Part shown: positions 7,524 to 24,093 of the stretch, one piece after another
How the letters are laid out: the number at the start of each line of letters is the position of its first letter
Position numbering within the stretch: position 1 is the first letter of the stretch
Virus record (IMG/VR): IMGVR_UViG_3300009537_000040
Location: 1-43,873 of that record
Length of the DNA: 43,873 nt
Strand: one strand, 5' to 3'
From: a virus
Translations under genes and position numbers: made by a program
The notes under the pieces: model-generated
Seen by the model: only the letters and a program-made list of their open reading frames with translations
What the model was told of the DNA's origin: nothing
The model's database searches: none

Positions 7524-7817
7524 ATGTACGTCACATCTTCTGAAGATAATATACTTCTTTGTAATGCCTGCTTGCCAGAAGAGCAAAAATCAGCCTATTT
7601 TGAAGATCCTTCTTTTGTCGTATATACAACCATGGAAGAATACCGTGGTTTGAGAAGGGCTTTGTGCTGGAAGCATTATGTCGTCGCTTGGAAAAGGCGA
7701 TATCCACATGAGGCCGTACCGCATCCAAACGTCCCAATAGCGTCATTGCAACTAGAAATCGATCAAGATCCGGATGTTATATCTTCTGTGGTCGCAAGGG
7801 CCTGGGAGGATAAATAG
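7524..7817 (+). CDS. hypothetical protein upstream of the large terminase
   Basis: Ninety-seven residues with three cysteines (CNACLPEEQ, LCWKHYVVAWKRRYPHE) that could form a small metal site with nearby His residues. The C-terminal part (IDQDPDVISSVVARAWEDK) is helical. It is directly upstream of the large terminase, and its 3' end carries GGAGG just before the terminase start region. Function unknown. Confidence 0.55.
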   Translation: MYVTSSEDNILLCNACLPEEQKSAYFEDPSFVVYTTMEEYRGLRRALCWKHYVVAWKRRYPHEAVPHPNVPIASLQLEIDQDPDVISSVVARAWEDK

Positions 7818-7827
7818 GAATGGAACG

Positions 7828-10383
7828 ATGAAAAGGGCCGATTCTGATGGCATAAAATTTATTCAAAAATGGGCGAGAGATCCGGAAAGCTTTGTTACAG
7901 AAGCCATCAGAGTCGAGAGAATAACAAAGCAGCAAAAAGAGGGCCTCTCAGAAGTAAAAAAACTCGTTGGCGCTAGACTGAAAAAAATACACGGAGAAGA
8001 ATTAACCCAAGAAGATCAGCAATATCTTAAGAAAATCGGCATAAGCGTCATGTCCGGTCATGGGACAGGTAAAGACGGATTTTGCGCCTGGCTGATTATA
8101 TGGTTTTTAGTCTGCTTCCCATATCCAAAGGTTCCTTGCACGGCCCCCACAGGGCACCAACTGCGGGATGTTCTGTGGGGTGAAATAAATAAGTGGATGC
8201 GACATAGCGCTACGGAGAATGAAAAAATTCAATCAGGATTGGATATCACGAAACTGCTTACCTGGAATTCTGAACGTGTTTATTGGACCGAACTTGGCGG
8301 AAAAGAATGGTTCGCTACAGCTAGAACCGCTAACCCAAAGGCAACGGATGAAGCGCAAGCAGAAACTTTGGCCGGACGACATGAAGACTATATGATGGTC
8401 GTTGTGGATGAGGCTTGCCATGATGATCAAACAGAGGTTTTAACTGATATCGGATGGGTTCACTTTTCTGTATTTGCAAAATATGGCGCAAAAGCCTTCC
8501 GTGTTTTAACTTTAGACCCGAATACTGGATATGCAGATTACCAGTTTCCAGAGAAGGTTCATGTCTCAAAAAGATCCGATGAGATGTATCATATAAGCCA
8601 CAGAAGCGCAGATGTTCTTGTCACCCCTAATCACGACATGCTCTATTGGCATAAATCAAGAAATAGGAGGAAGTGGAAAGTAAATAGGATAAAAGATATT
8701 AACAGCCACAAAATTTTTATGCCACGAACATTTAAGTGGAATGGAAAGGAAAAGGCAGATTTCTATCTTCCTGGATATAAGTGGGGCAATGGCAAAAGGG
8801 AAGAAAAAGTTATAGAAATGGATATCTGGCTTTCTTTTCTTGGTTGGTATTTTTCTGAGGGCAGCATAAACAAGGGTGGGCATAGTCCGTTTTCATCTGT
8901 TGTTATAAGTCAAACAAATAAGGAAAACAGAGAGAAGATCAAATCTGTTCTGGAAGGGCTTGGATTTAAATATTCTGAACACGGTAATGATTTTAAAATA
9001 TCATCAAAGCAGCTTGGTGTGTGGTTGTCAAAATTCGGGGTTGGAGCTCCGAACAAGTTTATTCCACAATTTATAGCTGATCTTTCACCAAGGCAGATAG
9101 GCATATTTCTTGATTCGTTTCATTCGGGTGATGGGTATTGGAAATCCGGTAAGCGTATATTTTATACATCATCTAAGTTAATGGCAGATGATTTACAAGA
9201 GCTTATTTTGAAATACGGAAGATATGCTTCTGTTGGGAAAAGAAAATTAAAAGGCACTAAAACCTGGATAAAAGATCATTTTGCGACATCCAATTATGAT
9301 GGATATGTTATTTCTGAATACAAGGGGAATACTCATTGTTCTGTAAAGCGAGAAAATATAAAGCGTGAGAACTATGACGGCATGGTTTATTGCTTAACTG
9401 TTTCCAATCGTCATTTTCTTATGACAAGAAGAAATGGACATTGTGTTTGGTCCGGCAATTCAGGCGTTGAAGCACCGGTGTTCAAGCCGATAGAGGGTGG
9501 TTTGACGGGGGTTTGTAATTTCATCGTCATGGTCTATAACCCCACTAGATCGGCTGGCTTCGCAATAGACAGTCAAACCAAGGATAGATCACGATGGGCC
9601 GCGTTACGCTGGAATTCAGAAGAATCTGAGCTGGTGTCACGTGAAATCATCGAGCACATGGAAAATAAGTATGGGCGCGATTCTAATCCTTTTCGTATTC
9701 GCGTGCTTGGCCTACCTCCTAAGTCGGAAGACGATGTCCTAATACCCTGGGAATGGGTCATGGACGCCATCGACCGAGACCTGGAACCATTGGATGTCGA
9801 TCAAGACGTAATCGGATTCGATGTAGGCGCCGGGTCCGACCCAAGCATCATACTAAACCGACACGGCCCAAAAGTCTTATCTCCAATCCATAAAAACGAC
9901 ACGTCAGACTCGGAAACCTTAACAGGATGGGCCATCGGCAAGATCATGGATTATGAACCCTCCATCGTATTTATTGATCGAATTGGCGTTGGCTGGGGAA
10001 TAGAGGGAAACTTAAGATCAAGAACGAATGTTAGGGTCATCGGCGTGAATGTCGCAGAGGTCCCATCTATTAGCGAAAGGTTTTATCGCCTGAGGGATGA
10101 ATTATGGTGGAAAGTAAGGGAACTTTTTGAAAAACGGGCTATCTCTATTCCGAATGACGATGAACTGATTGGAGAACTATCCATTATAAAATATTCTGAG
10201 CCGGACGGTAAAATAAAGGTTGAATCTAAAAAAGATTTAAAAAGACGTGGCGTGGCCAGCCCCAATAAGGCAGACGCATTATGCCTAACAGAATACTACT
10301 CCACTGAGACGATGAGGAGACTTTCTTCTCCAAGCAGGTCTTACAAAAGGAACCAAGCAGGTGTAAACTGGAAGACCGTCTAG
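7828..10383 (+). CDS. terL: phage large terminase subunit, intein-interrupted
   Basis: An 851-residue precursor. Without the intein (residues 197-544) the host protein is 503 residues, normal for a DNA-packaging motor. ATPase: Walker A-like SGHGTGKDG at about 76-84; Walker B strand MMVVVDEA immediately before the intein, with SGVEAP resuming after it. Nuclease: VIGFDVGAGSDPS (first catalytic Asp), IVFIDRIGVGWG and NKADALCL. The protein cuts concatemers and pumps DNA through the portal. Splicing is needed for function since the insertion sits at the ATPase active site. ATG 7828 is preferred over the in-frame CTG-like extension into the previous gene. Confidence 0.92.
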   Translation: MKRADSDGIKFIQKWARDPESFVTEAIRVERITKQQKEGLSEVKKLVGARLKKIHGEELTQEDQQYLKKIGISVMSGHGTGKDGFCAWLIIWFLVCFPYPKVPCTAPTGHQLRDVLWGEINKWMRHSATENEKIQSGLDITKLLTWNSERVYWTELGGKEWFATARTANPKATDEAQAETLAGRHEDYMMVVVDEACHDDQTEVLTDIGWVHFSVFAKYGAKAFRVLTLDPNTGYADYQFPEKVHVSKRSDEMYHISHRSADVLVTPNHDMLYWHKSRNRRKWKVNRIKDINSHKIFMPRTFKWNGKEKADFYLPGYKWGNGKREEKVIEMDIWLSFLGWYFSEGSINKGGHSPFSSVVISQTNKENREKIKSVLEGLGFKYSEHGNDFKISSKQLGVWLSKFGVGAPNKFIPQFIADLSPRQIGIFLDSFHSGDGYWKSGKRIFYTSSKLMADDLQELILKYGRYASVGKRKLKGTKTWIKDHFATSNYDGYVISEYKGNTHCSVKRENIKRENYDGMVYCLTVSNRHFLMTRRNGHCVWSGNSGVEAPVFKPIEGGLTGVCNFIVMVYNPTRSAGFAIDSQTKDRSRWAALRWNSEESELVSREIIEHMENKYGRDSNPFRIRVLGLPPKSEDDVLIPWEWVMDAIDRDLEPLDVDQDVIGFDVGAGSDPSIILNRHGPKVLSPIHKNDTSDSETLTGWAIGKIMDYEPSIVFIDRIGVGWGIEGNLRSRTNVRVIGVNVAEVPSISERFYRLRDELWWKVRELFEKRAISIPNDDELIGELSIIKYSEPDGKIKVESKKDLKRRGVASPNKADALCLTEYYSTETMRRLSSPSRSYKRNQAGVNWKTV
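8416..9459 (+). mobile_element. intein with LAGLIDADG homing endonuclease in TerL
   Basis: The 348 codons are bounded by Cys (CHDDQTEVLTDIGWVHF, block A) and by Asn followed by extein Ser (HCVWSGN then S). Block B is VLVTPNHDM (TxxH). Blocks F/G are VYCLTVSNRHFLMTRRNGH. Two LAGLIDADG-type helices, WLSFLGWYFSEGS and IGIFLDSFHSGDG, place a dodecapeptide endonuclease between them. The penultimate residue is Gly where many inteins have His, a known variant. The insertion point is DEA/S of Walker B. Confidence 0.9.
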
Positions 10384-10436: not shown

Positions 10437-10871
10437 TTGTTTGGAAATGGAGGTTCCGCGACAGATGCCTCTCATTTAGCTGCCGAACTCGTAAACTCAT
10501 ACGAAACACCACTTCCTGCTATATCCTTAGCATCCGATCAGGCCGTCATTACAAGCATTGCGAATGACCGTGGATTTGAGCATATCTTTGAACATCAACT
10601 AAGGGCTATAGGAAACCAACTGGATGTCGCCATTGGCATCTCTACTTCCGGGAACTCAGAGAATGTCATACGCGGCGTTATAACGGCTAGAGAATTGGGA
10701 ATGACCACCATAGGGTTTTGTGGTTGGCCCGGAGGCGAATTGTCAGAGAATGTAGATCGTGCGTTTATCAGTGACGAGAAAGAGGTCTCTCGGGTTCAGG
10801 AGTGGTATATGAATATCGGGCATCGCCTGTTCGATAAAGTGGGAAGGATGTTTCATGATAGTCGGGAATAA
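10437..10871 (+). CDS. SIS-domain sugar isomerase (GmhA / phosphoheptose isomerase-like)
   Basis: The fold signature VILFGNGGSATDASHLAAEL and later GISTSGNSENVI are the two phosphosugar-binding Ser loops of SIS isomerases such as GmhA; RVQEWYMNIGHRL matches their C-terminal helix. Expected role: isomerising or handling a phosphosugar precursor for the synthase downstream. Odd point: similarity clearly continues upstream of the TTG at 10437 (EDRLETVAKIILLSIENGGK), overlapping the end of terL, but no ATG or GTG exists in that frame after the stop at 10305. A CTG at 10368 is the best upstream start candidate. Confidence 0.8.
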   Translation: MFGNGGSATDASHLAAELVNSYETPLPAISLASDQAVITSIANDRGFEHIFEHQLRAIGNQLDVAIGISTSGNSENVIRGVITARELGMTTIGFCGWPGGELSENVDRAFISDEKEVSRVQEWYMNIGHRLFDKVGRMFHDSRE

Positions 10872-10872
10872 T

Positions 10873-11421
10873 TTATCTTTTATACCTACAACTCCAAGAA
10901 CACCACCTCACGCCTTTATTTTTCCAATGATTGCTTCTATAAAAACTTTTTTTGCAATTTTCGCATACCACCCAAAAACCGTCTTTTCGTGGGAATTTTC
11001 TTCCTGTTCGACACTCTTTAATATGTTCAGACTGATTTGCTTTAAGTCTGAGGTTTTCTATTCTGTTGTCGTTTTTTATATGGTTAATATGGTGAACGAC
11101 CTCTTTTTTTGTAATATATCTTCCAATTTGTTCTTCAACTACAAGTCGGTGCTCTCTGACATATCCCTGATTATTAGAAAATGGATGACCTGGTTTTTTA
11201 ATAAGAACATATCCATCTGTATCAATAAATTTACCGCCTTTCCATCTCCCGTTTTTTTCCATTGGACGTCTTGTTTTAGAAATGTGTTCTTTTGTGTGTT
11301 TTTTTCCGATATGCTGATGTCCATTTATAAATCTTTTCGCTCCTTGCCGTTTTATTTGAGAAGGATAAAGCTTATTGTGAATTACTGTATTTCCACAACC
11401 GCATGAACATTGGCTTTTCAT
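10873..11421 (-). CDS. free-standing HNH homing endonuclease, antisense in the sugar operon
   Basis: One hundred and eighty-two residues from ATG 11421. Order: an N-terminal cysteine knuckle (CSCGCGNTV), a NUMOD3-like HTKEHISKTR segment, the HNH_3 core (GYVREHRLVVEEQIG, EVVHHINHIKNDNRIENLRL), and a C-terminal zinc finger (CENCKKSF ... WCSWSCRYKR). It lies on the opposite strand, one base after the SIS stop and 36 bases before the NeuB start, so it is an intruder that breaks the operon without breaking a gene. It probably nicks or cuts a site in phages lacking it. Confidence 0.85.
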   Translation of the reverse strand: MKSQCSCGCGNTVIHNKLYPSQIKRQGAKRFINGHQHIGKKHTKEHISKTRRPMEKNGRWKGGKFIDTDGYVLIKKPGHPFSNNQGYVREHRLVVEEQIGRYITKKEVVHHINHIKNDNRIENLRLKANQSEHIKECRTGRKFPRKDGFWVVCENCKKSFYRSNHWKNKGVRWCSWSCRYKR

Positions 11422-11457
11422 GTATTGCAGTTTATAGTAACAGAGATAGGATGTAAA

Positions 11458-12318
11458 ATGGAAATTAATGGAAGAAAGATTGGTCACGCTCAACCTGCTT
11501 GGATATGCGCTGAGATCGGCATTTCACACAACGGTTCTTTTGAAACCGCCCAAAAACTCATAGATGTCGCGGTAGATGCCGGATGCGATGCCGTTAAGTT
11601 TCAAAAAAGAACGATTGATATTGTGTATACGCAAGAAGAGTTAAGCAAGCCAAGAGAGTCTGTTTTTGGGGACACGAATGAAGATCTTAAAAGAGGGCTT
11701 GAGTTTTCGTTTGATGATTATGTCGCAATCGATGCCTATTGCCATCATAAAGGGATTTTATGGTTTGCATCACCCTGGGACATTAAATCAGTTGAATTTT
11801 TGAAGGGCTTTAGGATTCCACTTTATAAGGTGGCGAGCCCGTGTTTAACGGATGAAAAGTTACTGGATGCGATTTGCTCAACAGATAAGCCCATTTTAAT
11901 GTCGATTGGAATGAGTTCACTAAAGGAGGTTTCCTCTGCTTGCAAGATTATTGAGAAATGGGGCAACCCATACGTTTTATTGGTCTGCACTTCATCTTAT
12001 CCATGTAAATTAGAAGATCTTAATCTGAAAAGAATAAAAACGTTAATCAATCAAGGTCATCCGGTTGGCTATTCAGGACATGAGGTAGGGTTATGGACTA
12101 CGTTATGTGCGGTTGCAATGGGAGCTTGTGTGGTTGAGCGACACATTACGTTAGATCGAGCCATGTGGGGCTCTGATCAAGCTGCCTCCATTGAGCCTCC
12201 GGGACTTAAAAAACTTGTTAAAGAGATCAGAGATTTTGAAAAAGCCTTGGGTGATGGAAAGATTGGCATGATTGAGGCAGAGAGACCTGTTATGGAAAAG
12301 CTGAGGCGGTTCAGGTGA
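11458..12318 (+). CDS. NeuB-family sialic/nonulosonic acid synthase, barrel only
   Basis: Two hundred and eighty-six residues forming the NeuB TIM barrel: AEIGISHNGSFETAQKLIDV, DAVKFQKRT, PLYKVASPCLTD, KPILMSIGMSS, VCTSSYPCKLEDLNL, VGYSGHEVG and VVERHITLDRAMWGSDQAAS. The family condenses phosphoenolpyruvate with a hexosamine-type aldehyde to give a nonulosonic acid such as sialic, legionaminic or pseudaminic acid. The usual C-terminal antifreeze-like (SAF) domain is absent; the chain stops after ALGDGKIGMIEAERPVMEK. YSGHE replaces the common YSDHT. The start follows GATAGGATGT. The in-frame GTA/ATG region before 11458 overlaps the HNH gene. Confidence 0.85.
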   Translation: MEINGRKIGHAQPAWICAEIGISHNGSFETAQKLIDVAVDAGCDAVKFQKRTIDIVYTQEELSKPRESVFGDTNEDLKRGLEFSFDDYVAIDAYCHHKGILWFASPWDIKSVEFLKGFRIPLYKVASPCLTDEKLLDAICSTDKPILMSIGMSSLKEVSSACKIIEKWGNPYVLLVCTSSYPCKLEDLNLKRIKTLINQGHPVGYSGHEVGLWTTLCAVAMGACVVERHITLDRAMWGSDQAASIEPPGLKKLVKEIRDFEKALGDGKIGMIEAERPVMEKLRRFR

Positions 12319-12336
12319 ATCCTTTTTGAGGCGAAC

Positions 12337-12456
12337 ATGAGTCTTTGGATGTTTGATCCCCAAGAAGGGAAGCCCTGGAAAACGTTTGATACGATCATGG
12401 TAATTTGTGCTGTCCTTTTTGTTTTGGTTCTTTTTTTTGGTGCTATTTTTACGTGA
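12337..12456 (+). CDS. small single-pass membrane protein
   Basis: Thirty-nine residues: MSLWMFDPQEGKPWKTFD, then a hydrophobic segment IMVICAVLFVLVLFFGAIFT to the end. It lies between the NeuB-like and cytidylyltransferase genes, and its stop overlaps the GTG start of the latter (GTGA). A possible membrane anchor or tag-along peptide of the sugar operon; no family recognised. Confidence 0.5.
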   Translation: MSLWMFDPQEGKPWKTFDTIMVICAVLFVLVLFFGAIFT

Positions 12457-13226
12457 AAGACAAACCAAGAGTAGTGGCCATTATTCAGGCAAGGATTAGA
12501 TCGACAAGGCTTCCCGGGAAGGTGATGTTGCCTTTGGCGGGCAAGCCCATGTTGTGGCATATTGTGGAGAGAGTAAAAAGGTCCAGGTTAGCAGATAGGG
12601 TCATTGTTGCCGTTCCGGACTGCGACACAGAGTTTTTTCAATCACCGCATGGTTTGGATTTAGTTGAATTCATTGCCCCCTTTCAGGGTCCTGGAGATGA
12701 ATATTGCAGTGAGAATGATTTGGTTCTAAGGTATCTATGTGCTGCTTCTATGTGTCATGCTGATGTTATTGTCCGTATTTGCGCCGACAATCCATTTGTA
12801 GAACCGGAAGAAATAGACAGGTTGATAAAATTTTCTAGGGATAATCCTGATTTGAAAGACGACACTTTGTTTACAAACATGATGCAATACGATGAGAAAT
12901 GTGGATATCCCAATGGGATAGGCGCTGAAGTCTACAGTTTTAATATGTTAGAGAAAACCCAAATTATACTTCAAGATAGAACATTGGATGAACAACGACG
13001 CCAATATCTTAAAGAACATATTCATGCAAATTGGATTGACTATGATTTATATAAACAACCTCAATGCCCAACCGAATTTGCGAGACCGGACTTAAGACTT
13101 GACGTAAACCATTTAACGGATTACGAGTTTGTCAAAGATATCTACGATCATCTTTACCCCAATAATCCTGAATTTCATATAACGGATGTCATAAATTATT
13201 TGGAAGGCAAGAAAGTGGTGCGTTGA
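12453..13226 (+). CDS. SpsF-type cytidylyltransferase
   Basis: Two hundred and fifty-seven residues from a GTG overlapping the previous stop. VVAIIQARIRSTRLPGKVML is the nucleotide-binding signature of the SpsF / CMP-KDO / CMP-NeuNAc synthetase superfamily; RICADNPFVEPEEIDRLI holds the metal-binding Asp region, and RLDVNHLTDYEFVKDIYDHL is the family's C-terminal motif. It would activate the acidic sugar from the synthase with CTP. The same SpsE-SpsF pairing occurs in Bacillus spore-coat polysaccharide clusters. The 3' end overlaps the aminotransferase start. Confidence 0.85.
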   Translation: MKDKPRVVAIIQARIRSTRLPGKVMLPLAGKPMLWHIVERVKRSRLADRVIVAVPDCDTEFFQSPHGLDLVEFIAPFQGPGDEYCSENDLVLRYLCAASMCHADVIVRICADNPFVEPEEIDRLIKFSRDNPDLKDDTLFTNMMQYDEKCGYPNGIGAEVYSFNMLEKTQIILQDRTLDEQRRQYLKEHIHANWIDYDLYKQPQCPTEFARPDLRLDVNHLTDYEFVKDIYDHLYPNNPEFHITDVINYLEGKKVVR

Positions 13227-14128
13227 AGATCTGGAAAAACGGACAATTTCTTCCAGAATCAGAAGCTAAAGCGAGCATCTATGACTCATCGCTTATGTTT
13301 GGTGATATGGCGTTCGAAATGTTAAGAACTTTCAATAAGAAGCCATTCAAACTGTACGAGCACATACGAAGGCTATTGTATTCCTGTAAGTACCTGGAGA
13401 TCGATATTCCATATTCTGCTATGGAACTTGAGGCGGCATTCCAGAGTCTTCTTATAGAAAACAGGAATAGTTTTGCTCCAGACGATGAAATCAGAGGCCT
13501 TATTAACGTTTCTAGAGGTACGCTTGAGATTTACAAAGACATTCTTCCTATGGGAACATGGGTGACGATGACTTGCTTTCCACTGCGATGGGTTATAAAG
13601 GGGGCCTATAGGTTCTATCAAGATGGGGTTAATGCCGTTATCCCTAGCCAAAGGGCTATTCCTGCATATTTGTTGGACCCAAAGGTCAAAAACCGATCAC
13701 GAATGCACTACCAGATGGCTAATATGGAAGCGGCACGAGTAGACCCCAAATCTTGGGCTCTACTACTGGATGTTGAGGGGCACCTGGCAGAAGGTTCGGG
13801 GTCTAATTTCTTCATTATCAAGAATAGGGAGCTTTTTACGCCAGAGCCAAGGAACATTTTACGTGGAATATCAAGGGATTACGTTATGAGATTGGCAAAA
13901 AGACTGAAAATAGAGGTTTTTGAGAGGAATTTGAACGCCTATGACGTTTACACAGCGGATGAGGCGTTTTTTACGTGTACCCCATACAGCATCATGCCGT
14001 GTACGAGAATAAATGGGTCTATGATTGGAGGTGGCAAGGTAGGGCGTCTGACCAAGTATTTACAGCATAAGTGGTCGGAGGATGTGAATTGTTTCTTTGT
14101 GGATCAATCTAGGAAATGGGATGCTTAG
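13223..14128 (+). CDS. class IV PLP aminotransferase (IlvE/D-amino-acid-transaminase-like)
   Basis: Three hundred and one residues from a TTG overlapping the previous stop (TTGA). LKIWKNGQFLPESEAKASIY, DSSLMFGDMAFEMLRT and LYEHIRRLLYS match the N-terminal domain of fold-type IV transaminases. DPKVKNRSRMHYQMANMEA holds the expected PLP lysine region, and LLDVEGHLAEGSGSNFFIIK is the hallmark segment. The enzyme may put an amino group on the sugar, or supply an amino acid joined to it. It belongs to the continuous overlapping operon. Confidence 0.82.
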   Translation: MKIWKNGQFLPESEAKASIYDSSLMFGDMAFEMLRTFNKKPFKLYEHIRRLLYSCKYLEIDIPYSAMELEAAFQSLLIENRNSFAPDDEIRGLINVSRGTLEIYKDILPMGTWVTMTCFPLRWVIKGAYRFYQDGVNAVIPSQRAIPAYLLDPKVKNRSRMHYQMANMEAARVDPKSWALLLDVEGHLAEGSGSNFFIIKNRELFTPEPRNILRGISRDYVMRLAKRLKIEVFERNLNAYDVYTADEAFFTCTPYSIMPCTRINGSMIGGGKVGRLTKYLQHKWSEDVNCFFVDQSRKWDA

Positions 14129-14915
14129 CGGGCTCAGTCAACTGAATGTGGAATTAACGTCGCGTTGCGACAAAAATGTCTTCTGTAGCTTCTGTGGTCA
14201 CCAGGACTCAAAAACAAACCCGAATCTACAGTATGGCGATATGGACTTTAACCTGCTGAAATCAATAAGAAAACAGGTTGAGCCTGGAATTATTGTTTCG
14301 TTTCACCGAGACGGGGAGCCGACGTTTTATCCAAGACTAAGAGAAGCGCTTGATTTATTTGAGGAATTCACTACAAGTATCGTGACTCACGGTGAGACGC
14401 TAGGTAAGCTTGCAGACACGATCATCGGCAGGTGCACAACTGTCACAGTATCAGTATTTAGAGGAGACCCGGACAGCGAAATGCAACTGAGTTCGCTTAA
14501 ACAATTCTTAGAGATAAAAGGCGCTAGAAAACCACAAGTCCTTGTAAAGATTGTAGGAGATATGGACTCTAAACCATTCGACAGCCTGCCTGTTAGGGTT
14601 ATCCACAGGCTGATTCATATTCCAGGCGGGAACACGAAATTTGCCCACAAGAATCCAACGGTTCCTGAGGTTGGCGTGTGCTTGGATTTCCTGGGGAAAC
14701 CAACGATAGATTGGCGCGGCAGGGTTTTTATGTGCAATCGTCTAGATCCACATGATCGTGGTTATCTTGGGGATTTGTCCAGCGAAACGTTAAATGAGAT
14801 ATGGAACGGTCGAACTAGGATGAATTGGCTGGCGGCACATAAGGCTGGCAGAAGGGATCTGGCCTCTGGGCTTTGTCGTGATTGTAAATCGTGGGGAGTT
14901 CCGAGTGGCCGGTGA
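14121..14915 (+). CDS. radical SAM / SPASM-domain enzyme
   Basis: Two hundred and sixty-four residues from ATG 14121 (upstream AGGAAATGGG). LTSRCDKNVFCSFCGH supplies the 4Fe-4S cysteines with an unusual C-x5-C-x2-C spacing instead of C-x3-C-x2-C. FHRDGEPTFYPRL is the glycine-rich GEP-type motif. A C-terminal SPASM-like part follows: VCLDFLGKPTIDWRGRVFMC, LGDLSSETLNEIWNG and GLCRDCKSWG. Such enzymes carry out radical chemistry on sugars or peptides. Its place after the aminotransferase suggests a further modification of the same product. Confidence 0.8.
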   Translation: MLSGLSQLNVELTSRCDKNVFCSFCGHQDSKTNPNLQYGDMDFNLLKSIRKQVEPGIIVSFHRDGEPTFYPRLREALDLFEEFTTSIVTHGETLGKLADTIIGRCTTVTVSVFRGDPDSEMQLSSLKQFLEIKGARKPQVLVKIVGDMDSKPFDSLPVRVIHRLIHIPGGNTKFAHKNPTVPEVGVCLDFLGKPTIDWRGRVFMCNRLDPHDRGYLGDLSSETLNEIWNGRTRMNWLAAHKAGRRDLASGLCRDCKSWGVPSGR

Positions 14916-15045
14916 ATTAGACAGAAATATGCTCTTGACGATGTATCGGCATATAAAAGGCCTATACAACACCATTCGATATGCTTTAAGTAGAACACAG
15001 TGCGAGAAGTGCAAAGGATACCACGACATAGAAAATAAGTGTTAG
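14905..15045 (+). CDS. small Cys-containing protein at the end of the sugar operon
   Basis: Forty-six residues from a GTG at 14905 with GGGGAG 7 bases before it, overlapping the radical SAM gene by 11 bases. It reads MAGELDRNMLLTMYRHIKGL, then RTQCEKCKGYHDIENKC: a helix followed by a C-x2-C knuckle and a last Cys. The stop codon lies inside the GTTAGGCT target duplication of the inserted element. Function unknown. Confidence 0.5.
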   Translation: MAGELDRNMLLTMYRHIKGLYNTIRYALSRTQCEKCKGYHDIENKC

Positions 15046-15048
15046 GCT
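15041..15048 (+). repeat. target-site duplication, left copy (GTTAGGCT)
   Basis: GTTAGGCT immediately outside the left inverted repeat is identical to 16191-16198 immediately outside the right one. Removing 15049-16198 would restore one copy and join the sugar operon end to the portal leader. Confidence 0.85.
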
Positions 15049-15077
15049 GGTAGTGGGTCAGTTTGGATTAGAATTAA

Positions 15078-15350
15078 TCAAGCCGAAACGGAATTATTAT
15101 CTACTTCCGATAATTTACTGATGGAAATAATAGATTTGGTGGGGATTGTCATATCGCCACAACCCTGCTTAGATACAGAGCCGTTAATGACTTCTGTTAC
15201 ATGAGGAACTACAACCTTACAATCATCACCATCATGCAGCAGCCATCCAACAGATCGGCAAACTAGCGGTTTGAAGTTATCAACTTCAAGAGCCTGCCAA
15301 TCAGAAGAACAACCAAAAGAATCTAACCACTCAATCAGTACCAAGTTCAT
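15078..15350 (-). CDS. conserved small protein (WLDS...CRSVGWLLHD family), element cargo
   Basis: Ninety residues. MNLVLIEWLDSFGCSSDWQA, then VCRSVGWLLHDGDDCKVVVP and MTIPTKSIISISKL. From memory, the pattern of a WxD/S near the N-terminus, CxSVGW, a polar turn, a PH strand and a closing IPTKxI strand recurs in an uncharacterised family of bacteria and phages. It is the second gene of a two-gene leftward unit inside the element, 11 bases after the 46-residue gene. Function unknown. Confidence 0.65.
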   Translation of the reverse strand: MNLVLIEWLDSFGCSSDWQALEVDNFKPLVCRSVGWLLHDGDDCKVVVPHVTEVINGSVSKQGCGDMTIPTKSIISISKLSEVDNNSVSA

Positions 15351-15361
15351 ACAATTGAATG

Positions 15362-15502
15362 TTATTTCCTTTTTGTGGGCTTGTGTGGACGGTTCGACAA
15401 AGCAGAACCAGCGGCACTCTTCGCCTTACCTGAAGATTTTGGACTGCGAAGAATCTTTGATGCAATCGATCCAACACGCTTTGATGTTTTCTGATGAGCC
15501 AA
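15362..15502 (-). CDS. conserved small basic protein (SKILRSPKSS...SAAGSALS family), element cargo
   Basis: Forty-six residues from a TTG at 15502 with a near-perfect ribosome site (AAAAGGAGGTGATTAAA). It reads MAHQKTSKRVGSIASKILRS, then PKSSGKAKSAAGSALSNRPH and a KRK end. I recognise this Lys/Ser/Ala-rich pattern as a widespread unannotated small-protein type. The basic charge suggests nucleic-acid contact. It was found by direct translation and forms a pair with the 90-residue gene. Confidence 0.65.
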   Translation of the reverse strand: MAHQKTSKRVGSIASKILRSPKSSGKAKSAAGSALSNRPHKPTKRK

Positions 15503-15643
15503 TTTAATCACCTCCTTTTCAACTACATATAGCATGTTTTGTTTTTGAAGTCCACAATATATTGTATTAATCCATTAGCCCGATAATCTCCTCCAAATCC
15601 CGTCACATTTCCGCTCTGTCACGCCGTCGTTTGTATCTCCTAT

Positions 15644-15677
15644 AAAAAAGCCCCACATTATTTGTGGGGCTTTTTTT
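15644..15677. terminator. bidirectional rho-independent terminator in the element
   Basis: A-run, GCCCCACA, a short loop (TTATT), TGTGGGGC, then seven T. The hairpin is symmetric with A before and T after, so it can end transcription from either side. It separates the leftward pair from the rightward 45-residue gene. Confidence 0.85.
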
Positions 15678-15729
15678 ACTTTATTGTGCTTGGATTTATA
15701 TTAGTTTATATGGTATCTTTATAGGTGAA

Positions 15730-15867
15730 ATGGCTATTGTGACTCAAAGGAAAAAGAAGCCTGTTAGGACTACAATTAAACCTAAGAAAAGCGATTATCA
15801 AAAGTATGTAGTTGAACCAGCGAAGCGATTACTTACCCTTATAGACGAGTCGGACGTTAAAAGATAA
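15730..15867 (+). CDS. small basic protein, element cargo
   Basis: Forty-five residues from ATG 15730, preceded by AGGTGA at short spacing. It reads MAIVTQRKKKPVRTTIKPKK, then YQKYVVEPAKRLLTLIDESD. A basic tail followed by one helix. An in-frame upstream extension (to 15664) is hydrophobic and reads out of the terminator, so it is not favoured. No family recognised. Confidence 0.45.
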   Translation: MAIVTQRKKKPVRTTIKPKKSDYQKYVVEPAKRLLTLIDESDVKR

Positions 15868-15885
15868 TCACCGTTCTAAACCCGC

Positions 15886-16125
15886 TTAGGTCGTCGGTTT
15901 TCTTGACCAGCGAGAGGATGCTGCTTTGCTAGCGATTTCCTTACGTTTTTTAGGTGAAAGGGCTTTCTTTCTGGCAGGACCGCCTTTTAACCCCCCTAAT
16001 CTACCAAGGGCTTGGGCGTGAGGGTTCTTCTCTTTGGGTTTTTCGGTAGGTTCTTCCGTGGCAGCCTTCAATATCTCAAAGGCCGTGACATTCTCGTCTT
16101 TAGTCTTTCTTGACCGCTTAGGCAT
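15886..16125 (-). CDS. basic GRLGGLKGG-type protein, element cargo
   Basis: Seventy-nine residues: MPKRSRKTKDENVTAFEILK, an acidic/Lys linker, then NPHAQALGRLGGLKGGPARK and LSPKKRKEIASKAASSRW. The GRLGGxKGGxAR...LSPxxRxEIAxKAAxxRW motif is common in small bacterial proteins of unknown function and in tails of some HTH proteins, and is probably nucleic-acid-binding. It ends close to the right inverted repeat and reads back into the element. Confidence 0.6.
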   Translation of the reverse strand: MPKRSRKTKDENVTAFEILKAATEEPTEKPKEKNPHAQALGRLGGLKGGPARKKALSPKKRKEIASKAASSRWSRKPTT

Positions 16126-16190
16126 ACCTTAGTATGCCATATTCGAGTACGGCTTGTCATCTTGTCCTTAATTCAAACTGACCCACTACC

Positions 16191-16198
16191 GTTAGGCT
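16191..16198 (+). repeat. target-site duplication, right copy (GTTAGGCT)
   Basis: Identical to 15041-15048. The next bases complete an 11-bp palindrome GCTTGACAAGC (16196-16206) that also occurs at 6148-6158 around a promoter -35. Confidence 0.85.
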
Positions 16199-16228
16199 TG
16201 ACAAGCGGTATTATAATGTGGTTTTAAT
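16198..16228 (+). promoter_or_regulatory. weak rightward promoter candidate before the portal gene
   Basis: TTGACA at 16198-16203 and TTTAAT at 16223-16228, with a 19-base spacer (longer than ideal). The TTGACA is embedded in the palindrome GCTTGACAAGC. The element inserted right at its upstream edge, so its regulation may have changed. Confidence 0.3.
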
Positions 16229-16269
16229 GTAATTGCGGTAATCACAGGAAGGCTCGCCTCTTTAATAAG

Positions 16270-16301
16270 GCCACCCTGCAAAACGGGGTGGCTTTCTTTT
16301 T
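16270..16301 (+). terminator. terminator-like hairpin overlapping the portal start
   Basis: GCCACCC (16270-16276), a 9-base loop, GGGTGGC (16286-16292), then TTTCTTTTT. This is a good intrinsic-terminator shape, yet the 3' arm contains the GTG start of the portal frame and the T-run encodes its first codons. It may act as an attenuator or hide the ribosome site. Confidence 0.55.
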
Positions 16302-20836: not shown

Positions 20837-21406
20837 ATGCAGCTACATAAAAAGATTTATGGGTGGTATCAATCAAAATCTGGACTCTGGTACCACAAAA
20901 AAGCATCTGGTGGTTTTACCGCCTATGTCATTAGTGGGTGCGATGAATGTGGAGATTTGTTCTTTGATCGAAAATATAAGGTCAAAAACAAAAAAGGTGG
21001 CAGAGGGAAGCATTACTGTTCGAGAAGTTGCTCTAGTACAGCAACTGTCCGAGAGCAGGATGTTTCTCATCTCCGCAAGTATACGTTCAAGAAAGGTCAA
21101 AAACCGCATAATTTCAAAGGCAGAAAACGTCATGCTGGAGGTTATGTGGAAATTACAGGAGACGGTAAAGTGCAGTTGGAGCATCGCTACATCATTGAGC
21201 AATTTTTGGGACGAAAGCTCAAACGTAGCGAGGTTATCCATCATGTCAATGGTGATCGCACCGACAATCGGTTGGAGAACCTACGGTTTATGAGTCAATC
21301 TGAACACGTCAAACTTCACTGGCAGGAAGGTGCATTTGCCAATAGAGAAGAAGTCAAAAAGCAACGAATCATTCAGGAGTATCTGGATGAGAAGAAAGTG
21401 AGGTAA
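20837..21406 (+). CDS. free-standing HNH homing endonuclease after the coat gene
   Basis: One hundred and eighty-nine residues with GGAGG before the ATG. A cysteine pair set (CDECGDLFFD ... HYCSRSCSS) is followed by the HNH_3 core (VQLEHRYIIEQFLGR, EVIHHVNGDRTDNRLENLRF). It shares the core layout with the endonuclease at 10873-11421 but differs in its flanking domains, so the two are relatives and not recent copies. It is inserted between the coat gene and a small structural gene without disrupting either. Confidence 0.85.
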   Translation: MQLHKKIYGWYQSKSGLWYHKKASGGFTAYVISGCDECGDLFFDRKYKVKNKKGGRGKHYCSRSCSSTATVREQDVSHLRKYTFKKGQKPHNFKGRKRHAGGYVEITGDGKVQLEHRYIIEQFLGRKLKRSEVIHHVNGDRTDNRLENLRFMSQSEHVKLHWQEGAFANREEVKKQRIIQEYLDEKKVR

Positions 21407-22413: not shown

Positions 22414-24093
22414 ATGATGTCGAATGTTGATGAGGCGAGGGCTCTTCCGGCTCTCGCCTATCACATACAGAGAGTAAGGACTAAGATTGCCTCTGGTATT
22501 TACAAAACTGAGCCCGTCAAGTGTTTCTGTGGCCAAGATGATGGCATTCAGGTCACGGACCAAGACCGATATGGCATTGAATACTTAATGTTCTTGTGCA
22601 AGAACTGCGGAATTCTATATGCCAACCCAAGATTAACTGAAGACTCTCTTTCAGAATTCTATTCTTGTGAATACAGGCCCATCTATGATTTTGACCAGGA
22701 TAAGGAAGAGCAGTTTGATTGTGCTGTAACGCAGGGTGAAAACATTATAAAGTTCTTAGAGTATTTTGACTTTCACCCGAAATCCGTGCTGGACATCGGA
22801 TGTAATATGGGCGGGAATTTAATCCCGTTTCTTGAAATTGGCTGTCGGGTCAAGGGGATCGAGTTTGGTCCAGGGATTGAAACAGCAAAACAATACAATG
22901 TGCCACTTCACTCAGGTTCCCTATACGATTTAAATGAAATGTTTGATCTTGTGATCATGAATCACGTCTTTGAGCACCTAACAGACCTTGAGCGTGTGCT
23001 AGATAAAGTAAAAGATATTTTGACCGATGAAGGCAGGCTCATTATACGTGTTCCTGGACTTTTTGCTTGGGAGAAGGACATATTGTTTCAAAACGCACAC
23101 AACTGGCAATTCACAAGAAACAGCTTGGCCTATGTTATGGAATGTTGTGGCTATGAAGAAATCTATTGCGATGAACACATTGTCTCAATGTGGAAGTACA
23201 CAGGAAAAGAACGCTCCAAGAAGGCCACCAATAAACAGGCTGTAGTTGATAACCACGCCTACCTGTTTAAAGACAAAAAGCGTCTTCCTGAAGTTAATGG
23301 GTACAACAAGTTTCCAGTCAAGGTCAGGATGGATGGGATCGAACATTGGTTATCTTTAGATATACCAGACATTCACGATATCAAGGAATCCGTAAAAGGC
23401 GGGGACGCGCTAATTGTTGGTGGTGGTCCATCTGTAAATGATTATTTCGACGAAATATTGCAGATGCAGAGCAATGGGGCAAAGGTGTTTGCTATTGAGA
23501 GGATGTATAAAGGATGCCTAGACAAGGGGGTTACACCAGACTATGTGGTAGTGTTTGATGCAAGTGACGATATCTTAGAGTCTATGGGGTCTCCCATGCC
23601 AGAGGTCACCCATCTTATATCGACTCAGTGCAAGAAAGAGTTGTCTGAATTAGTACGCAATTATCCTTGTTATCTCTTTAATACCCCACAAAAAGGAATA
23701 GACATGGAAAGATTGTGGGACAAATACAAGAGGCCAACCACAACCATTATAAATGGCGGTGGGAGTGTAACGCTTTGTGCAATGTCATGCGCATTAACGA
23801 TTGGTTTTAGCGATGTCCACATCTTTGGTTTTGACTGTCATATCGGAAATGGATCATATGCCAATGGCATTACTGGCTTTGGGGCGATTCAAGACAGCAT
23901 ACAAGTTGAGGTAGACGGTAAATTTTACACGACCACTCCTCCGTACATGAGCTTTGCCCAGCAATTCTTTAAATTGAAAAAGTGGGCTGAAGACGGAGGT
24001 CTTTTAAAAAGTGTTAAAATTTACGGAGACAGCATTGTGTCTGAAATGAGCAAGGAAAATATAAGCGATAACAGGAGGGTTGACCATGTTTAA
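22414..24093 (+). CDS. methyltransferase fused to a DUF115/MptE-like (Maf-type) domain
   Basis: A 559-residue fusion. N-terminal zinc part: VKCFCGQDDG and CKNCGILYANPRLTEDSL, as in sugar C-methyltransferases. Then a SAM-binding Rossmann domain: SVLDIGCNMGGNLIPFLEIG, DLVIMNHVFEHLTD and EGRLIIRVPG. From about residue 330 comes a DUF115/MptE-like domain: GGDALIVGGGPSVNDYFDEI, VFAIERMYKGCLDKGVTPDY, VVVFDASDD, NGGGSVTLCAMSCALTIGFS and IFGFDCH. In Maf proteins this domain transfers nonulosonic acids to flagellin. It could transfer or methylate the product of the 10437-14915 operon. Confidence 0.8.
   Translation: MMSNVDEARALPALAYHIQRVRTKIASGIYKTEPVKCFCGQDDGIQVTDQDRYGIEYLMFLCKNCGILYANPRLTEDSLSEFYSCEYRPIYDFDQDKEEQFDCAVTQGENIIKFLEYFDFHPKSVLDIGCNMGGNLIPFLEIGCRVKGIEFGPGIETAKQYNVPLHSGSLYDLNEMFDLVIMNHVFEHLTDLERVLDKVKDILTDEGRLIIRVPGLFAWEKDILFQNAHNWQFTRNSLAYVMECCGYEEIYCDEHIVSMWKYTGKERSKKATNKQAVVDNHAYLFKDKKRLPEVNGYNKFPVKVRMDGIEHWLSLDIPDIHDIKESVKGGDALIVGGGPSVNDYFDEILQMQSNGAKVFAIERMYKGCLDKGVTPDYVVVFDASDDILESMGSPMPEVTHLISTQCKKELSELVRNYPCYLFNTPQKGIDMERLWDKYKRPTTTIINGGGSVTLCAMSCALTIGFSDVHIFGFDCHIGNGSYANGITGFGAIQDSIQVEVDGKFYTTTPPYMSFAQQFFKLKKWAEDGGLLKSVKIYGDSIVSEMSKENISDNRRVDHV

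Follow-up and report, generated by a model that had tools for sequence, protein, structure and literature searches.

As listed below, the segment at 15049-16190 of the window (the whole stretch of viral DNA that was analysed, 43,873 bases) comprises two terminal inverted repeats, four small open reading frames and a hairpin, and is bordered by two copies of an 8-bp sequence. The segment is located between a block of sugar genes and the portal gene, and the insertion at this place proposed by the initial annotation is supported.

14878..15045, plus strand: phage gene at the left flank, with a CxxC pair and an uncertain start; in the related phage loci L382, L386 and L404, which have no insert, its homologue immediately precedes the portal promoter
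15041..15048, no strand: left copy of the target duplication GTTAGGCT; contains the stop codon of the upstream small gene
15049..15065, plus strand: left terminal inverted repeat; the end where relatives carry the transposase
15078..15350, minus strand: ORF1, 90 aa; PHROG 25889 match (function unknown)
15362..15535, minus strand: ORF2, 57 aa, basic; PHROG 5079 match (function unknown)
15644..15676, no strand: hairpin resembling a two-way intrinsic terminator, with a 14 bp stem and an A/T tail on either side
15730..15867, plus strand: ORF3, 45 aa, basic; ATG at 15730, or 67 aa if the GTG at 15664 is used
15886..16125, minus strand: G gene of the GGLKGG family, 79 aa; its start is 65 bp inside the right end
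16131..16160, minus strand: promoter-like ATGACA-18-CATACT for G; other G ends have TTGACN-N17-like boxes in that place
16174..16190, minus strand: right terminal inverted repeat ('G end')
16191..16198, no strand: right copy of GTTAGGCT; the TTGACA box (16198-16203) starts with its last T

The sequence GGTAGTGGGTCAGTTTG was found without mismatch at 15049-15065 (plus strand) and 16174-16190 (minus strand), forming terminal inverted repeats of 17 bp; its chance expectation in the window with up to 3 mismatches is 0.15. On extension, the inverted repeat grows to 22 bp with one mismatch (left copy to 15070). Both ends of the segment are flanked by the 8-bp GTTAGGCT (15041-15048 and 16191-16198); by arithmetic, the probability of such a match arising by chance is about 1 in 65,000. 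When all 43,873 bases of the window were scanned for perfect 17-bp inverted pairs no more than 6 kb apart, this pair alone was returned, and 60 shuffles yielded one such pair in total. The perfect 17-bp repeats and the 8-bp duplication claimed initially were both confirmed, and the four small genes and the two-way terminator described with them are present. No transposase was detected within 15049-16190 by a profile search in six frames without filters, in agreement with the earlier reading, and the Rfam search of the element gave no score near the gathering threshold.

Related phages were identified at 46 loci by means of the capsid protein (44-65% identical), while a single-sequence query with the portal protein returned no relatives. 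In L382, L386 and L404, a radical-SAM gene, a small CxxC gene and the portal gene occur without the ends, and an extra gene stands before the small gene in L382 and L386 and behind it in L404. In these three loci, which have no insert, a TTGACA box lies at the small gene's stop codon or immediately behind it. The window gene at 14878-15045 is the small CxxC gene of these relatives; identity is about 30%, and the CxxC pair, Y-R and K are conserved. The left GTTAGGCT includes the TAG that ends this gene, and the right copy ends in the T with which the TTGACA box (16198-16203) opens. Judged from this arrangement, the element appears to have landed exactly between the stop codon and the TTGACA box, sparing both. 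The -10 box behind the TTGACA at 16198-16203 is poor and a promoter scan did not list this site, so that a promoter at 16198 is suggested by the relatives. The uninserted site would read AAGTGTTAGGCTTGACA once. A search of viral contigs for the exact empty-site 17-mer gave one match, which is unrelated, and a letter-identical empty site was not found among the related phages, which share only 44-65% of their capsid residues. The empty site anticipated by the initial annotation is represented by the uninterrupted loci L382, L386 and L404, by synteny and not letter by letter. From this clean insertion site it can be seen how cargo of this kind is tolerated by a phage beside a capsid gene.

Viral contigs contain the exact 17-mer end in at least 119 stretches, and genomes from many phyla contain it in at least 118. 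When ends were paired within 9 kb and 7 or 8 of the 8 duplicated bases were required, at least 50 elements with these ends and a duplication were obtained; they are between 65 bp and 4.4 kb long and are spread over phage contigs and the genomes of many phyla. Among the elements listed, the duplication is mostly perfect and the target sequence is nearly always the element's own. Since many elements each possess their own duplicated target, the 17-bp ends are the ends of a mobile element. The identical 17-mer also borders elements bearing a transposase, the association for which a search had been proposed, and the repeats did not prove to be ordinary regulatory sites, as the same ends border elements with duplicated targets. 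Forms of the size of MITEs (65-360 bp) with these very ends occur as well. Related subgroups have other ends, GGTAGTGGGGGATTATG, GGTAGTGTCCTAATTTG and GGTAGTGCATCATTTTG, to which GGTAGTG is common, and they are also accompanied by 8-bp duplications. Besides phages, the group is represented in Nitrospirota, Acidobacteriota, Planctomycetota, Alphaproteobacteria and others.

IS1 is a classical family, its classical element being about 0.77 kb long with overlapping insA and insB; single-frame members are known, and ISMhu11 represents a long IS1 subgroup. The longer elements found here code for a protein of about 280 aa that starts with an HTH and has an IS1-type catalytic signature, the DDE signature being TSYVERQNLTMR...RRxTRLTNxFSKK. 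PF03400 (DDE_Tnp_IS1) scored above its gathering threshold in 4 of 5 transposases tested, and NF033558 (IS1) was the best NCBIfam match in all 5, with scores of 51-69 bits where the cut-off is 100. NCBI labels plasmid-borne homologues 'IS1 family transposase'. As a rule, the transposase of the relatives is a single open frame of 269-344 aa, and the insA/insB frameshift arrangement was not seen in the autonomous relatives. In the subgroups seen, the ends begin with GGT (GGTAGTG...) and the duplication is 8 bp, in keeping with the IS1 family (8-9 bp). Membership in IS1595, guessed from the 8-bp duplication, was rejected at no more than 33.5 bits against a cut-off of 75. The relatives share with the IS1 family the DDE transposase signature, the GGT-starting ends and the 8-bp duplication; they differ in the single-frame transposase of about 280 aa that scores below the NCBI IS1 cut-off, and in elements of 2-4.4 kb carrying cargo and a small gene termed G.

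Full-length elements follow one plan: an end, G reading inward, cargo, the transposase and the other end, with G and the transposase on one strand. The end itself encodes the final S-N-stop of the transposase. When the transposase alone was used as the query, it was present in 20 of 148 genomes of the phylum of a Nitrospira and in 19 of 149 genomes of the phylum of an Acidobacterium, mostly in 1-4 copies. Matching ends and perfect duplications were seen at most of 20 loci found in this way (5-kb flanks).

The G proteins share the motif GGLKGGxARAxxLTxxxRxEIAxKAAxARW (alignment of 36). G is present in all 14 listed end-defined elements with a full transposase, a count that leaves out L090, which has a transposase fragment only. 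At 17 of the 20 loci found by the transposase alone, G lies 1-2.5 kb upstream on the same strand. A search for G in 16 of the transposase-positive genomes gave 19 full-length matches, all of them within about 2.4 kb of a same-strand transposase. Among the 268 exact ends listed, G lies no more than 400 bp away from 54, and at 52 of these it reads inward; 28 have the transposase, its stop codon being exactly 9 bp inside in 17; no end carries both. G commonly starts 14 or 65-70 bp inside the end. Beside one plasmid transposase, a small gene in the matching place is annotated 'histone H1'. It can be seen that G is a hallmark of the IS1-related transposon group, and together with the 17-bp end it provides simple annotation markers for this group.

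The window gene at 15886-16125 is 62% identical to the G of Nitrospira element L165, and it starts 65 bp inside the right end, like many other G genes. As G and its own promoter-like boxes are located at the right end, this end corresponds to the G end, and ORF1 and ORF2 occupy the left end, where a transposase would be expected. Four small ORFs are present, as initially described, but one of these supposed cargo genes is G, the hallmark of the element family. The predicted fold of G consists of four helices (pLDDT 78, pTM 0.34), and no PDB match was found for the model. G probably regulates transposition as a small DNA-binding protein, or serves it as an accessory factor, in view of its constant place near an end, its own promoter and the basic helical nature of its protein.

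Apart from G, two genes of the window element recur in relatives. Homologues of ORF1 are found in the G-bearing element L031 and in L415, there next to the end on the transposase side, and ORF2 adjoins an ORF1 homologue in L246. A homologue of ORF3 (47% identical over 32 residues) occurs in the autonomous element L335 between G and the transposase, in the same orientation relative to G as in the window. Comparison of ORF1, ORF2 and G with annotated phage records gave no match. Six other elements carry G and cargo without a transposase (L014, L016, L029, L105, L117 and L237), and the window element is therefore of a recurrent type.

G at its standard place, the lack of a transposase and two other recurring genes indicate a non-autonomous, cargo-carrying derivative. 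It is very probable that 15049-16190 is a non-autonomous member, in other words a mobile insertion cassette, of a widespread IS1-related transposon group. Inverted repeats, a target duplication, other genes replacing the transposase and ends shared with an autonomous element are all observed, as in cassettes of this kind. The element was mobile in the past, and it was presumably moved in trans by the transposase of an autonomous relative. The DDE transposase of such a relative, supplied in trans from a host replicon, would recognise both 17-bp ends and join them to a target with an 8-bp stagger, located where the small gene's stop codon meets the TTGACA box. The duplication would leave both the stop codon and the box whole, so that the insertion would be tolerated. 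G would be transcribed inward from its own promoter adjoining the right end, and ORF1-ORF3 would be passengers of undefined benefit, insulated by the two-way terminator. An anonymous phage segment is now tied to a transposon group with a fixed plan.

It is rather unlikely, though it deserves consideration, that a complete element with G, cargo and transposase was inserted and that the transposase was then lost by internal deletion in the phage. At about 15566-15600, a short stretch of the expected strand reads RDLEEIIGLMD-stop and is similar to the C-terminus of the transposase; however, its 21.8 bits fall within the range of shuffles (mean 18.6, largest 23.1), and a control stretch of the same phage scores higher, at 23.2 bits. 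The recurrence elsewhere of G-bearing elements without a transposase also speaks against a deletion in this phage. As a candidate remnant of the transposase in the window element, the reading was rejected as not above chance in shuffles and control stretches.

The cargo of relatives often appears to be toxin-antitoxin-like, judging from domain matches: a HigB-like toxin with an XRE/M78 protein in L325 and L029, HicA in L330, XRE/M78 in L120, L169, L237, L065 and L333, and a P63C-domain protein in L331. By analogy with these HigB-like, HicA, XRE/M78 and P63C cargoes, the window cargo might be a toxin-antitoxin or anti-defence module benefiting the phage or the element, an arrangement in keeping with the tandem ORF2 and ORF1 and with the recurrence of the ORF1-ORF2 neighbour pair in L246. 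Nevertheless, this is improbable: Pfam, NCBIfam and PADLOC gave no credible match for any of the four window proteins and no recognisable toxin-antitoxin genes in the window copy, and in L246 the ORF1 and ORF2 homologues converge and do not form an operon. That the segment consists of phage-native genes between regulatory inverted repeats, with no insertion, has next to no probability despite the matches of ORF1 and ORF2 to phage protein families, being refuted by the recurrence of the same ends with a different 8-bp duplication per site around transposase-bearing bacterial elements, and opposed by related phages without the segment 15049-16190.

As a mobile insertion cassette, the window element belongs to a described kind, with ends and a duplication and without a transposase, for which the definition and the example of MIC231 and IS231A are available (PMC3913671); a qnrS2 cassette is another example (PMC5444012). 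The initial statement that transposase-less cassettes are little described in phages was somewhat too strong, because such cassettes are a known kind (PMC3913671). MIC231, which is moved by the IS231A transposase, and mic-qnrD resemble the window element in their inverted ends, target duplication and genes replacing the transposase, and in the existence of autonomous relatives with the same ends. In contrast to them, the window element has IS1-related and not IS4-family ends, resides in a phage and keeps the G gene of its parent group. Members of the group with ends only are non-autonomous in the manner of MITEs, whereas the window element is 1.1 kb long and carries genes. Tn3-family transposons have repeatedly acquired different toxin-antitoxin pairs (PMC7157771), which is their likeness to the present group; they differ from it in transposase family, and in the group no resolvase was seen and the window copy has no recognisable toxin-antitoxin pair. 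No open paper describing G-bearing IS1-related elements or ISMhu11 was found, and a named ISfinder entry may exist. The insertion is genuine and of a known general type, while the G-bearing group seems undescribed.

A broader proposal is put forward tentatively, as a possibility with less than even chances. G may be a dedicated, near-obligatory partner of an undescribed IS1-related group of many phyla, a regulator or transposition factor acting at the ends, which is kept in phage-borne cassettes because it aids mobilisation in trans; phages would then spread cassettes and addiction-like cargo between bacteria. As such an end-acting partner, G would be comparable to InsA of IS1 in role, not in sequence.

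Some larger cargo proteins share a G-like motif, GGKARAxxLSPxxRxEIAxKAA. The observation on P63C and the G motif concerns L066 (1130-2092), L331 (3820-4917) and short G matches in G001, G056, G091 and G132.

Several other features were noticed in the phage genome. Between the terminase and the portal, 10437-14915 contains SIS-domain, NeuB, cytidylyltransferase (NeuA-like), class IV aminotransferase and SPASM-domain (radical-SAM-like) genes. Together they make up a nonulosonic-acid-like sugar pathway carried by the phage, and parts of this block are retained in related phages, before the portal or behind the capsid gene. The frame of the terminase large subunit (7774-10383) has an intein-like insert with a LAGLIDADG endonuclease domain. 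Two HNH_3 homing-endonuclease-like genes are present, at 10873-11493 (minus strand) in the sugar block and at 20837-21406 (plus strand) just behind the capsid gene. A 559-aa protein with methyltransferase and MptE-like domains (22414-24093) is encoded among the structural genes. Finally, a terminator-like GGCCACC...GGTGGCC hairpin at 16267-16295, before the portal start, also occurs in L382, L386 and L401. Its stems are changed yet still pair in relatives (GCCAACC/GGTTGGC in L401), a pattern that would suit a conserved leader or attenuator of the portal gene.
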